From: Corallococcus praedator
GTDB taxonomy: Bacteria > Myxococcota > Myxococcia > Myxococcales > Myxococcaceae
DNA: 33,422 nucleotides
Assembly: GCF_003612125.1 (NCBI RefSeq)
Contig: NZ_RAWI01000058.1
Location: 1-33,422 of the forward strand
Direction: 5' to 3'
The notes under the pieces are model-generated. The model had not been told where the DNA came from. It saw only the letters and a program-made list of their open reading frames with translations, and made no database searches. The position numbers and the translations under genes were made by a program. This document shows positions 16,844-20,030 of this stretch, piece by piece; position 1 is the first letter of the stretch; every line of letters starts with the position of its first letter.

Positions 16844-16941
16844 GCCGCCCTGCTTCAATTTTCCATTTCAAGGCGGAGGGAAAGGGCGCAGCGTCGGTGT
16901 TGAATGCCGATTGGACGCCCCTCTTCAGGAGAACCCTTCGC

Positions 16942-18075
16942 ATGATCGTGATGCTCGAGCCGGATTCGCCGGAATCCGTTGTGAATGCCGTCCTCCATCT
17001 GGCTTCGCAGTACGAGGGCGTCACGCCCCGCGCGCACGTGGTCCAGGGCGCCGAGTCCACCATCACGGAGCTGTACCTGCTGGGCTCCACCGCGCAGGTG
17101 CCGCTGGAGCCCTTCCAGCAGCTGCCCGGCGTGCGCCAGGTGGTGCGCGTGTCGCAGAAGTACCGGATCATCGGGCGGCACGGTGGCCAGCGCACCACGG
17201 CGGGCTTCGACTACAACGGCGTGTCCTTCGGTGACACCACCGTGAACCTCTTCGCGGGCCTGTGCGCGGTGGATTCGCTGGAGAGCGTGGACTCGATGAT
17301 GGCGGCGCTCGCGCGCTGCGGCATCCAGACGACGCGCATGGGTGCGTACAAGCCGCGCACGAACCCGTACGAGTTCCAGGGCCTGGGCGCCAAGTGCCTG
17401 CCGTGGGTGTTCGAGTCCGCGGGCAAGCACGGCATCAAGGTCGTCGCGATGGAGGTGACGCACCCGCGCCACATCGATGAAATCAACGACGCGCTCAAGC
17501 AGTCCGGCAACGCCACGGGCGTGATGCTCCAGGTGGGCACGCGCAACGCGCAGAACTTCGAGCTGCTCAAGAGCATTGGCCAGCAGCGCGCGTTCCCAGT
17601 GCTCTTCAAGCGCGGTATGGGCATCACGCTGGAGGAGTCCCTCAACGCGTGCGAGTACGTGGCGAGCGAGGGCAACCCGAAGATCGTCTTCTGCCTGCGC
17701 GGCGTGAAGACGCACCTGGGCGACCCGCACCGCAACATGGTGGACTTCGCGCACGTGCCCGTCGTCCGCCGGCTGACGCGCATGCCGGTGTGCGTGGATC
17801 CGTCGCACGCCATCGGGCGCGCGGAGGCCCCGCCGGACGGACTGCCGGACATCTTCCACGCCATTGGCCAGGGGCTCATCGCGGGCGCGTCCATGGTGCT
17901 GGTGGACTTCCACCCGCATCCGGAGATTGCGTTGTGCGACGGACCGCAGGCGCTGCGCCTGGAGCAGTTGGGCGCGCTCCAGCGCTACACGAACATCGTT
18001 CGCGGCGCGTACACGGAGGCGGTGAAGAACGGCGACGGAACGGCCGCCAAGGCCGGCGCGCAGGTCAGTCGCTGA
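16942..18075 (+). CDS. aroF: 3-deoxy-7-phosphoheptulonate (DAHP) synthase
   Basis: A 377-aa enzyme that condenses phosphoenolpyruvate with erythrose 4-phosphate, the first step of the shikimate pathway. An N-terminal ferredoxin-like regulatory domain (about 1-85) precedes the TIM barrel. This is the type I-beta arrangement found in AroF-like enzymes, not the long type II form. Signature segments are GAYKPRTNPYEFQGLG, LFKRGMGITLEE and DPSHAIGRAE; the last two hold ligand and metal residues. I chose the ATG at 16942, with AGGAG upstream at long spacing; an ATG at 16951 is also possible. It is convergent with two prephenate dehydratase genes, overlapping the nearer one by 11 bases, so the entry and Phe-branch steps sit side by side. 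Confidence 0.93.
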   Translation: MIVMLEPDSPESVVNAVLHLASQYEGVTPRAHVVQGAESTITELYLLGSTAQVPLEPFQQLPGVRQVVRVSQKYRIIGRHGGQRTTAGFDYNGVSFGDTTVNLFAGLCAVDSLESVDSMMAALARCGIQTTRMGAYKPRTNPYEFQGLGAKCLPWVFESAGKHGIKVVAMEVTHPRHIDEINDALKQSGNATGVMLQVGTRNAQNFELLKSIGQQRAFPVLFKRGMGITLEESLNACEYVASEGNPKIVFCLRGVKTHLGDPHRNMVDFAHVPVVRRLTRMPVCVDPSHAIGRAEAPPDGLPDIFHAIGQGLIAGASMVLVDFHPHPEIALCDGPQALRLEQLGALQRYTNIVRGAYTEAVKNGDGTAAKAGAQVSR

Positions 18076-18898
18076 GCGCGTAGCAGCCGAGGACCTGGAG
18101 CGACGTGCACGCGCTCCGGGCCTCGTCCAACGCGGCCCGCACCTGGGGCGCGTCCTCCCGGCCGTCCACGTCCAGGCACCAGCGGTAGTCCCAGGCGCGG
18201 ACGCCGCCGGGGCGGGACTCCAGCCGCGCGACGTTCACCCCGCGCGTGGCGAAGGCCCCCAGCACGCCCGCGAGCGCGCCGGGCCCGTCGTTCAGCGTGA
18301 GCACCACGGACGTCTTCCACCGGGAGCCCAGGTGGGGCGGGAGGGCCGGCCCCACCGCGAGGAAGCGGGTGGCGTTGTCCGGTGAGTCCTCGATGCCTTC
18401 GGCGAGGACGGCCAGGCCGTAGAGGTCCGCCGCCGCCCGGCTGGCGATGGCCGCCGTGCCTGCGGGGGCCTCCTCGCCCACCCGTCGCGCGGCCACCGCG
18501 GTGTTCACCTCCGGCACCGGCTGCAGGTGGTGCCTGCGCAGCCAGCCCGAGCACTGCGCCAGCGCCTGGGGATGGGACAGCGCGCGGGTGAGGCTCGCCA
18601 GCGAGCGCCCCGGTGGCGCGAGCAGGCAGTGGCGCACGCGCAGGCGCAGCTCTCCGGACAGGCGCGGGGTGAACTCCAGCAGCAGGTCCACCACCTCCGC
18701 CACCGGGCCCGCGAGCGCGCTCTCCAGGGGCAGGACGCCGCCGTCCACCCGGCCCTCGGCGACGGCTTCGAGGACGGCGCGGAAGGAAGGGCAGGGGACC
18801 AACACCACCGACGGGCCGAAGAAGGCCCGCGTGGCTTCGTCGCCGTACGCGCCGCGCTCGCCCTGGAAGGCGATGCGGCGGGGGGCGGCGTCATCCAT
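18065..18898 (-). CDS. Prephenate dehydratase-like protein with ACT domain (second copy)
   Basis: A 277-aa protein with a prephenate dehydratase domain (about 1-185) and a C-terminal ACT domain (LNDGPGALAGVLGAFATRGV, ESRP). The conserved SHPQALAQC and DNATRF motifs are kept. The usual PIENS/T motif reads PLESALAG, so the Asn that helps catalysis in the E. coli enzyme is Ser here. There is no chorismate mutase domain. Its start overlaps the end of the upstream fused copy by 8 bases, so the two are translated together. It may be a weaker dehydratase, act on another substrate such as arogenate, or serve as a regulatory partner. The 3' end overlaps aroF by 11 bases. Confidence 0.85.
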   Translation of the reverse strand: MDDAAPRRIAFQGERGAYGDEATRAFFGPSVVLVPCPSFRAVLEAVAEGRVDGGVLPLESALAGPVAEVVDLLLEFTPRLSGELRLRVRHCLLAPPGRSLASLTRALSHPQALAQCSGWLRRHHLQPVPEVNTAVAARRVGEEAPAGTAAIASRAAADLYGLAVLAEGIEDSPDNATRFLAVGPALPPHLGSRWKTSVVLTLNDGPGALAGVLGAFATRGVNVARLESRPGGVRAWDYRWCLDVDGREDAPQVRAALDEARSACTSLQVLGCYALSD

Positions 18899-20030
18899 CG
18901 ATGGGCTCCGCGCGCGGGTACGTGCCCAGCACGCGCAGCGACGCGGTGAGCGAACGCAAATCCTCCAGCGCCGCCGTCACGGACGCGGACGCGGCGTGGC
19001 CCTCCACGTCCAGATAGAAGCGGTACTGCCACGGGGCTCCCGGGATGGGGCGCGACTCCAGCTTGGTGAGGTTCACCCCGCGCTGCGTGAGCCGTTGCAG
19101 CACCTGGCCCAGCGCACCCGGACGGTGTTCCAGCACCACCAGCAGGGACGTCTTGCAGGGCACGTCCGGCGCGAGCGGCGTCGGTTCACGCCCCACCTCC
19201 ACGAAGCGCGTGAAGTCCGCGCCGGGTTGCAGGTCGCTCGCGAGCACCACGAGGCCGAAGCGGCTGGCCGCGGACTCACTGGCGATGGCGGCCATCGTCA
19301 CGTCGTTGCGGTCCGCCACGGTGCGCGCGGCGACGGCGGTGTCCGGCCCCAGCACCGCGCGGGCCCACGGCACGTGCGTGCGCAGGAAGTCCTCGCACTG
19401 GGCCAGCGCCTGCGGATGCGACAGCACCTCGCGCAGGTCCTCCAGCTTCGCGCCCTTCACGCCCAGCAGCCGGTGATCCACCTGGCTCACCAGCTCGCCG
19501 GTGATGACGCCATCGCCCGCGGCGAGCACGTCGTAGGTCTCGTTGATGGTGCCCGCGGTGGTGTTCTCGATGGGCATCAGCAGCAGGTCCTGCTCGCCCT
19601 TCTTCAGGGCCTCCACCGCCTGTCGCGCGGAGTCGAAGCCGGTGAGGAGCACGCCGCCCGGACGGTGGCCGTAGCGCTGGCGCGCGGCCAGGTGGCTGTA
19701 GGAGCCCTCGACGCCCAGGTACCCCACGCGCAGGGGCGTGGTGTCCAGCCGCGTGACCAGCGCCTGCTGCCGCGCGACGGACATGTCCAGGATGACGCGG
19801 TAGAGGCGCTCCACCTCGTGCGGATCCAACCCGCGCTCGGCTGCCCGGCCGCGCAGCTTGCGCAGGAGCAGGTCCTCGCGCTGTGGATCCCGGAAGGGCC
19901 AGGCCGTCACCAGCTTCGCCCGCGCCACGTCGTCCGCCAGGGCCATGCGCCGCTGGAGCGCGTCGAGGATGTCCTCGTCGACGCGTTCGAGGGCTGTTCG
20001 CAGGGTGTCCAGGTTCGGGGTGTCCGCCAT
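18891..20030 (-). CDS. pheA: Chorismate mutase-prephenate dehydratase (P-protein)
   Basis: A 379-aa bifunctional enzyme of the phenylalanine branch. Residues about 5-90 are an AroQ-type chorismate mutase (LRTALERVDEDILDALQRR, AKLVTAWPFRDPQRE). Residues about 100-280 are prephenate dehydratase with PIENTTAGTINETYD and SHPQALAQC. Residues about 290-375 are an ACT domain with the Phe-binding pattern HRPGALGQVL and ESRP. The TRF motif is present, but the residue two before it is Asp-Phe-Thr rather than Asn-x-Thr (ADFTRF). The ATG at 20030 has no strong Shine-Dalgarno sequence. It overlaps the second dehydratase copy by 8 bases and lies 41 bases after DUF4291, so it may belong to that longer transcript. 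Confidence 0.93.
   Translation of the reverse strand: MADTPNLDTLRTALERVDEDILDALQRRMALADDVARAKLVTAWPFRDPQREDLLLRKLRGRAAERGLDPHEVERLYRVILDMSVARQQALVTRLDTTPLRVGYLGVEGSYSHLAARQRYGHRPGGVLLTGFDSARQAVEALKKGEQDLLLMPIENTTAGTINETYDVLAAGDGVITGELVSQVDHRLLGVKGAKLEDLREVLSHPQALAQCEDFLRTHVPWARAVLGPDTAVAARTVADRNDVTMAAIASESAASRFGLVVLASDLQPGADFTRFVEVGREPTPLAPDVPCKTSLLVVLEHRPGALGQVLQRLTQRGVNLTKLESRPIPGAPWQYRFYLDVEGHAASASVTAALEDLRSLTASLRVLGTYPRAEPIDG

Follow-up and report, generated by a model that had tools for sequence, protein, structure and literature searches.

An overlapping pair of prephenate dehydratase genes in Corallococcus praedator, each protein of which lacks a different conserved asparagine

A stretch of 33,422 nucleotides from Corallococcus praedator (contig NZ_RAWI01000058.1, positions 1 to 33,422 of the forward strand; hereafter the window) carries two overlapping genes for prephenate dehydratases: a fused chorismate mutase and dehydratase, or P-protein, and a dehydratase-ACT protein of 277 residues, which we label PDT2. 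Each protein lacks one of two asparagines that are invariant in reference dehydratases, and retains the other. This is a real, conserved oddity within a known enzyme family. The explanation that we favour, tentatively and at a little under an even chance, is an old two-protein module of the phenylalanine branch, coupled in translation, whose members are splitting a single task. Control by phenylalanine and catalysis are probably being shared out between the members of a co-translated, subfunctionalised pair, whose chains are probably in contact.

The P-protein gene (18891-20030; both genes and all of their features lie on the minus strand) is an open reading frame of 379 amino acids with the Pfam domains CM_2 (residues 10-89), PDT (102-283) and ACT (294-359), that is, the N-terminal AroQ-type chorismate mutase fused to a dehydratase and an ACT domain that characterises a bifunctional P-protein. 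Its chorismate mutase domain (19764-20003) scores 71.8-75.4 bits against a Pfam cut-off of 27, and its dehydratase domain (19182-19727) 161.7-163.9 bits against PF00800 (cut-off 25.2). The PDT2 gene (18065-18898), an open reading frame of 277 amino acids, encodes a dehydratase domain (PF00800, 185.8 bits, cut-off 25.2) and an ACT domain (18122-18310), with no Pfam match to chorismate mutase. All Pfam domains of both proteins are above the curated cut-offs. Both ACT domains, that of the P-protein being encoded at 18954-19151, keep the GAL (PGAL) and ESRP motifs expected of phenylalanine-binding domains. The stop of the P-protein gene and the start of the PDT2 gene overlap by 8 bases (18891-18898). 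An earlier reading of the DNA from sequence only had placed two overlapping genes here, and the open reading frames and Pfam domains agree with it.

That sequence-only reading had also described different losses in the two proteins, and these stand. In the P-protein the dehydratase domain retains GSYS, PIENT, SHPQALAQ and TRF, and reads ADFTRF, with Asp272 (codon GAC, 19215-19217) in place of the asparagine of the NxTRF motif, two residues upstream of the threonine. PDT2 keeps DNATRF and reads PLESA, with Ser60 (codon AGC, 18719-18721) in place of the asparagine of PIEN. The TRF motif with its catalytic threonine is present in both, as DFTRF and NATRF, respectively. Both affected positions are asparagine in 79/79 reference dehydratases from other bacteria and archaea; this set, from which the near-twin of the window (L033) was excluded, comes from one search with PDT2 as query, as the best 80 of a longer list, and leans towards PDT2-like proteins. 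Of the 48 columns that are at least 92% conserved in these references, 7 differ in the P-protein and 6 in PDT2. PDT2 further reads GAYG where the family has GxYS, with Gly19 at a position that is serine in 73 of the 79 references (GAYG is found in 5/79), and its ACT domain has a tryptophan in place of an invariant phenylalanine.

The two positions are not equivalent on the map of the Escherichia coli enzyme. A mutagenesis paper in Biochemistry from 2000 is said to name four catalytic residues, Thr278, Asn160, Gln215 and Ser208, with the Asn160Ala variant reportedly ~500-fold lower. We take the PIEN asparagine to be among these four and the NxTRF asparagine not to be. On this map PDT2 would lack one catalytic residue, the equivalent of Asn160, and the P-protein would keep all four, its Asp272 being a change at a conserved neighbour of the catalytic threonine. 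Four residues of the E. coli enzyme are reported as important for catalysis, and Glu159 and Glu232 as affecting substrate binding (PMC8192741); a second paper describes TRF as critical, with ESRP and GALV as ligand-binding motifs (PMC10845154).

The pair was followed through 117 genomes of the order and then 195 of the phylum, with genera given here as codes, g1 being the genus of the window. Identical domains were merged before motifs were counted, leaving 248 rows; genome G144 was merged into its twin L033, whose motifs are the same, in the motif counts (15 g1 rows) and included in counts of overlaps and of substitution rates (16). A third, weak PF00800 piece in genome G093 (34.7 bits) was excluded, as were genomes G071, G179 and G191. 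The tandem pair is found in g1, g2, g3, g6 and g38, and, modified, in g43. Counted without redundancy, P-proteins have DFTRF in 15/15 g1 and DYTRF in 27/27 g6 rows; D[FY]TRF is also found in g2 (2/2), g10 (4/4), g17 (2/2 of this clade), g38 (1/1) and g3 (3/7), the remaining 4/7 of g3 reading NYTRF. The second gene reads PxES[AST] in 15/15 g1 and 27/27 g6 rows, and PVEN in g2 (2), g3 (7), g38 (1) and g7 (1), the single g7 genome having PDT2 alone with all motifs canonical. Across the 42 counted genomes of g1 and g6, no dehydratase carries both asparagines; each of the two proteins retains SHPQ...Q and TRF in 42/42 rows. The codons in these two genera are GAC in the P-protein and AGC, once AGT, in PDT2; each is one transition from AAC or AAT, and nonetheless each substitution is fixed in all 42 rows. 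As fixed motifs across g1 and g6, judged by this comparison, the substitutions are neither chance nor a sequencing slip.

The overlap is equally persistent. All 53 pairs (g1 16, g2 2, g3 7, g6 27, g38 1) have a start codon placed so as to create the 8-base overlap, ATG in 52 and GTG in 1, although an earlier in-frame start is also present in a number of g6 and g3 pairs. This conservation backs the proposal, made from the single locus, that the two proteins would be made together. Median pairwise ratios of non-synonymous to synonymous substitution rates (dN/dS) are 0.161 (g1) and 0.149 (g6) for the P-protein and 0.277 (g1) and 0.256 (g6) for PDT2, about 1.7 times the P-protein values; by this measure both genes are under purifying selection. 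The ESRP motif of PDT2 is intact in 27/27 g6 rows, altered in 1/15 of g1, 3/7 of g3, 2/2 of g2 (FPRP) and 1/1 of g38 (EPRP), and absent in g43 (2/2), whereas in the P-proteins of the same genera it is altered in 1/54.

The phylogeny that the earlier reading had called for places P-proteins and PDT2s in two deeply separate clades. A recent tandem duplication was rejected: constraining the two to one clade gave a p-value of 0.0003 in the approximately unbiased test (p-AU). The pair was therefore assembled from two old, different dehydratases, and is not a recent duplicate in decay. Within the P-protein clade aspartate at NxTRF is widespread, and the asparagine of the four g3 species is nested there, among DYTRF relatives, so that it looks like a reversion. 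For PDT2, g2 is sister to g1 (support 99/97) and keeps PVEN; the serine at PIEN, shared by g1 and g6 and absent from g2, thus implies two origins or one reversal.

Copy number and substitution go together in this set. Both asparagines are kept in 33/33 of the single-PF00800 genomes read (33 of 48 found), and 61 of the 67 genomes read with at least two matches (of 71 found) have a copy that lacks one of them. Loss of either asparagine is thus seen, in these genomes, only beside a second copy; the counts reflect few events by shared ancestry, not independent cases. All 55 genomes in which a DxTRF copy was read (in 54 a P-protein of this clade, in the other a protein of family f5) also hold an NxTRF dehydratase. 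The losses include the more degenerate chorismate mutase-dehydratases of f5 and an IITRF copy in genome G139. In f5 (L167, L170, L171, L172) a chorismate mutase is joined to a degenerate dehydratase (e.g. PVESE, GPAELLHD, GPSRF) that keeps ESRP; these genomes also hold a canonical stand-alone dehydratase, which makes them a second case of a fused dehydratase that loses motifs while its ACT domain stays. The G139 protein (L199:1222-2634) is a chorismate mutase-dehydratase with IITRF instead of NITRF, and the second dehydratase of that genome is canonical.

The most telling variant is found in the two species of g43 (G154 and G155). Their first gene retains the chorismate mutase (143.6 and 143.9 bits with a model made from sequences of the P-protein clade) together with an ESRP-bearing ACT domain, but 86 dehydratase residues are gone. 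In the numbering of a predicted structure of P-protein residues 95-379, a dehydratase plus ACT fold (predicted local distance difference test score, pLDDT, 94.4; predicted template modelling score, pTM, 0.88), the missing segment covers residues 87-172 and includes SHPQ...Q; it spans roughly the end of strand 81-90 to the start of strand 178-186, and either end may be a few residues out. In the loops that are left the sequence is PLEST or PLEGT, and HYTRY. The second gene overlaps the stop of the first by 4 bases in G154 and starts 2 bases after it in G155. Its product, with SHPQALAQ and NTTRF intact and a PLHNS sequence, terminates without an ACT domain, and none was found in the next 170 codons in three forward frames. 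No other PF00800 match was found in the g43 genomes, which are draft assemblies, one 82% complete, in which another may be missed. Both species agree, and an assembly fault is therefore unlikely. On these gene structures, if either protein of the g43 pair catalyses the dehydratase reaction it has to be the second, and the only ACT domain of the pair, in the first protein, may control that second protein. The g43 pair thus joins an ACT-less chain to a partner without a full catalytic domain, whereas both window chains are full length and show no such split. Position and a quick tree (support 89) place the second gene of g43 with the PDT2s; in the careful tree it falls outside, with a p-AU of 0.30 that neither shows nor rejects membership.

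Two further genera depart from the tandem arrangement. In g10 (4 genomes) PDT2 is absent, and a different stand-alone dehydratase lies directly upstream of the P-protein gene, whose ATG follows the stop of that dehydratase by 6 bases in 4/4; as read from gene order, the pairing is rebuilt with another partner. In g17 the second dehydratase is unlinked in two genomes (G113 and G137), and three others (G135, G136 and G138) lack such a P-protein and have one complete chorismate mutase-dehydratase of another kind.

Given the conservation of the overlap, the new partner in g10 and the end point in g43, an interacting pair is likelier than two strangers. In the division of labour that we favour, the P-protein would supply chorismate mutase and the better-kept phenylalanine-sensing ACT domain, its dehydratase domain carrying aspartate at NxTRF, and PDT2 would supply a second dehydratase domain with an intact TRF loop and serine for the PIEN asparagine. 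Overlapping translation would yield matched amounts of both chains, which probably act jointly, either in a mixed oligomer or as two weak enzymes working in parallel. With the load shared, neither chain would have to retain every residue: the second copy would relieve the first, the ACT domain would stay better kept in the P-protein, and dehydration would be shared or shifted. This presumes contact between the chains, lower activity as a result of the substitutions, and phenylalanine control that works across chains. In g43 such a split is seen at its end point. The earlier idea of a split between catalysis and phenylalanine sensing thus gains comparative support from g43 and from the altered ESRP of PDT2 in several lineages, but in the window itself both proteins keep both ACT motifs.

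Several observations weigh against this explanation. The retention of SHPQ...Q and TRF in both proteins fits two independently active enzymes equally well. The four NYTRF P-proteins among DYTRF relatives in g3 make the aspartate seem reversible, and it may be harmless. PDT2 evolves faster than the P-protein. With both ACT motifs intact in the window proteins, and ESRP intact in 41/42 second genes of g1 and g6, the regulatory split of g43 is not simply transferable to the genus of the window. The membership of the g43 second gene in PDT2 is unsupported in the careful tree, and the draft state of the g43 genomes leaves room for another dehydratase. Conserved linkage with short overlaps is, moreover, common in operons without protein contact, and both activity and complex formation of this pair are predictions. 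The motifs retained in g1 and g6 would be compatible with both proteins being active or with the P-protein doing most of the work, and PDT2 may in these genera simply be a weaker, auxiliary chain.

Several other explanations have to be set against a division of labour. That the two are ordinary isoenzymes, each a complete, phenylalanine-inhibited dehydratase that tolerates its substitution, with the overlap reflecting operon packing, seems rather unlikely. The motif retention just described, purifying selection on both genes and the apparent reversion from aspartate to asparagine in g3 speak for it, as do the occurrence of GAYG in reference proteins and the confident dehydratase plus ACT folds predicted for both proteins (for PDT2, pLDDT 94.5 and pTM 0.88). 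Yet the two asparagines, invariant in the 79 references and in the 33 single-copy genomes, are normally constrained, and are lost here only beside a second copy. It is unlikely that the pair forms an obligate two-chain dehydratase, in which the chains assemble and neither is normal alone in g1 and g6; an ancestral hetero-oligomer would then have lost catalysis in the first chain in g43 and mainly in the second in g1 and g6, its roles switching between orthologues. Quite unlikely, too, is a P-protein that is the working dehydratase of g1 and g6 beside a degraded auxiliary or purely regulatory PDT2, with the roles reversed in g43. The E. coli map, the missing GxYS serine and the higher dN/dS of PDT2 point this way; however, PDT2 keeps SHPQ...Q and TRF throughout g1 and g6, unlike the degenerate f5 proteins, and every g1, g2, g3 and g6 genome in the phylum search has two PF00800 matches.

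A new substrate for one copy, which the sequence-only reading had also raised, found no support in this analysis. A changed PDT2 substrate, such as arogenate or another cyclohexadienyl acid, with the PIEN change altering recognition, would fit a fixed serine beside retained SHPQ...Q and TRF as a re-tuned recognition; it is nevertheless improbable, as PVEN persists in this gene in the sister genus, g2, and the plant switch between arogenate and prephenate is reported in the PAC region with Ala314 and not at PIEN (PMC10845154). Least of all can we credit a hetero-oligomer that completes one composite active site with the PIEN and NxTRF asparagines from different chains, for although the losses are reciprocal, both positions (Asn62 and Asn178 of the model, residues 156 and 272 of the P-protein) lie outside the segment 87-172 excised in g43 and apparently in the same lobe of one chain, as judged from the order of elements in the predicted model, that deletion and a published two-subdomain description (PMC8192741), so that lobe exchange would not unite them and mixing within one lobe would be required.

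In the wider genome, a profile search found PF00800 matches in this pair alone. Cyclohexadienyl dehydratase belongs to the SBP_bac_3 fold, and SBP_bac_3 had no match in the window genome; among the dehydratase types searched for, the pair are thus the only ones that it has. CM_2 has a second match in the genome, away from this locus. Convergent with the pair is a gene for 3-deoxy-D-arabino-heptulosonate 7-phosphate (DAHP) synthase (16897-18075, plus strand), which overlaps the PDT2 gene tail to tail by 11 bases. A DAHP synthase relative is present, irrespective of orientation, in the fetched flank of the pair in g1 (15/15), g2 (2/2), g3 (5/7), g6 (27/27) and g38 (1/1). A missing tyrosine route was considered and set aside: PF02153 has no match in the window assembly, probably through an assembly gap, whereas across the order it matches 99/117 genomes at E ≤ 0.001, 87 of them above the cut-off; of the 14 further g1 genomes searched, 13 are among the 99. 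PF00351 occurs in the window genome as two pieces in one frame.

Other families of the phylum hold further unusual forms. In f7 (L219:2486-4474, L222:784-2727) one frame of about 650 residues has a dehydratase domain without ACT and a weak terminal chorismate mutase match; in L219 a DAHP synthase was read by eye between the two domains, and 3/5 f7 loci match the window DAHP synthase, so that three steps of the phenylalanine branch are apparently joined in one protein. The small genomes of f22 (L182, L223) have a chorismate mutase-dehydratase that stops short of an ACT domain and is probably without phenylalanine control. In the family of the window, f1, at least 11 genomes that are 95-100% complete have no PF00800 match (G031, G053, G068, G077, G091, G097, G103, G104, G106, G110 and G111); these are possible phenylalanine auxotrophs, or have another dehydratase.

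Together, the pair with an intact copy, the single substitutions in each copy, the full domain split and the replaced partner form a graded natural series, which shows how a feedback-controlled enzyme of a central pathway may be divided between two proteins. The roles of the PIEN and NxTRF asparagines, and the limits on myxobacterial phenylalanine supply, thereby become testable. The A1 minimal medium for Myxococcus xanthus contains added phenylalanine at 0.1 mg/ml (PMC4048283), and growth on A1 therefore does not probe the dehydratase step. Among the literature matches listed there was none on this myxobacterial pair, most subscription papers being outside the coverage.

Compared with solved structures, the predicted P-protein fold is closest to prephenate dehydratases and their relative GqqA: 7am0 (GqqA; Z 29.7, root-mean-square deviation (rmsd) 3.1, 272 residues aligned), 6vh5 (Z 29.5, rmsd 3.0, 273), 3mwb (Z 28.8, rmsd 2.6, 274) and 2qmx (Z 28.7, rmsd 3.4, 266). 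The P-protein shares its domain order with E. coli PheA, and among NCBIfam models it matches PRK10622 best (261 bits, residues 4-373); unlike PheA, it falls under the PRK10622 cut-off of 577, has aspartate at NxTRF and is coupled to a second dehydratase. It passes the prephenate dehydratase model PRK11898 (220.8 vs 219). PDT2 resembles the monofunctional, ACT-bearing dehydratase of Chlorobium tepidum (2qmx), which it matches over residues 9-275 of 277 (E 4.9e-47), but differs from such enzymes in its serine for the PIEN asparagine and glycine for the GxYS serine, and is below both NCBIfam prephenate dehydratase cut-offs (224.8 vs 359, 208.3 vs 219). Short HisG and HisZ form a catalytic and regulatory pair of paralogues; the g43 pair would, by analogy, likewise match an ACT-less catalytic chain to a sensing chain, although the enzyme is another and a g43 complex is putative. 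GqqA of Komagataeibacter europaeus is reported to keep only two of four catalytic residues and yet to complement an E. coli dehydratase mutant, a precedent for the tolerated loss of catalytic residues, but is a single protein for which an acylase role is also reported (PMC8192741). Finally, the free-standing ACT gene of Bacillus subtilis annotated pheB places an ACT unit outside the catalytic protein; it encodes an ACT domain only, whereas the ACT domain of g43 is fused to a chorismate mutase and half a dehydratase (PMC1173090).

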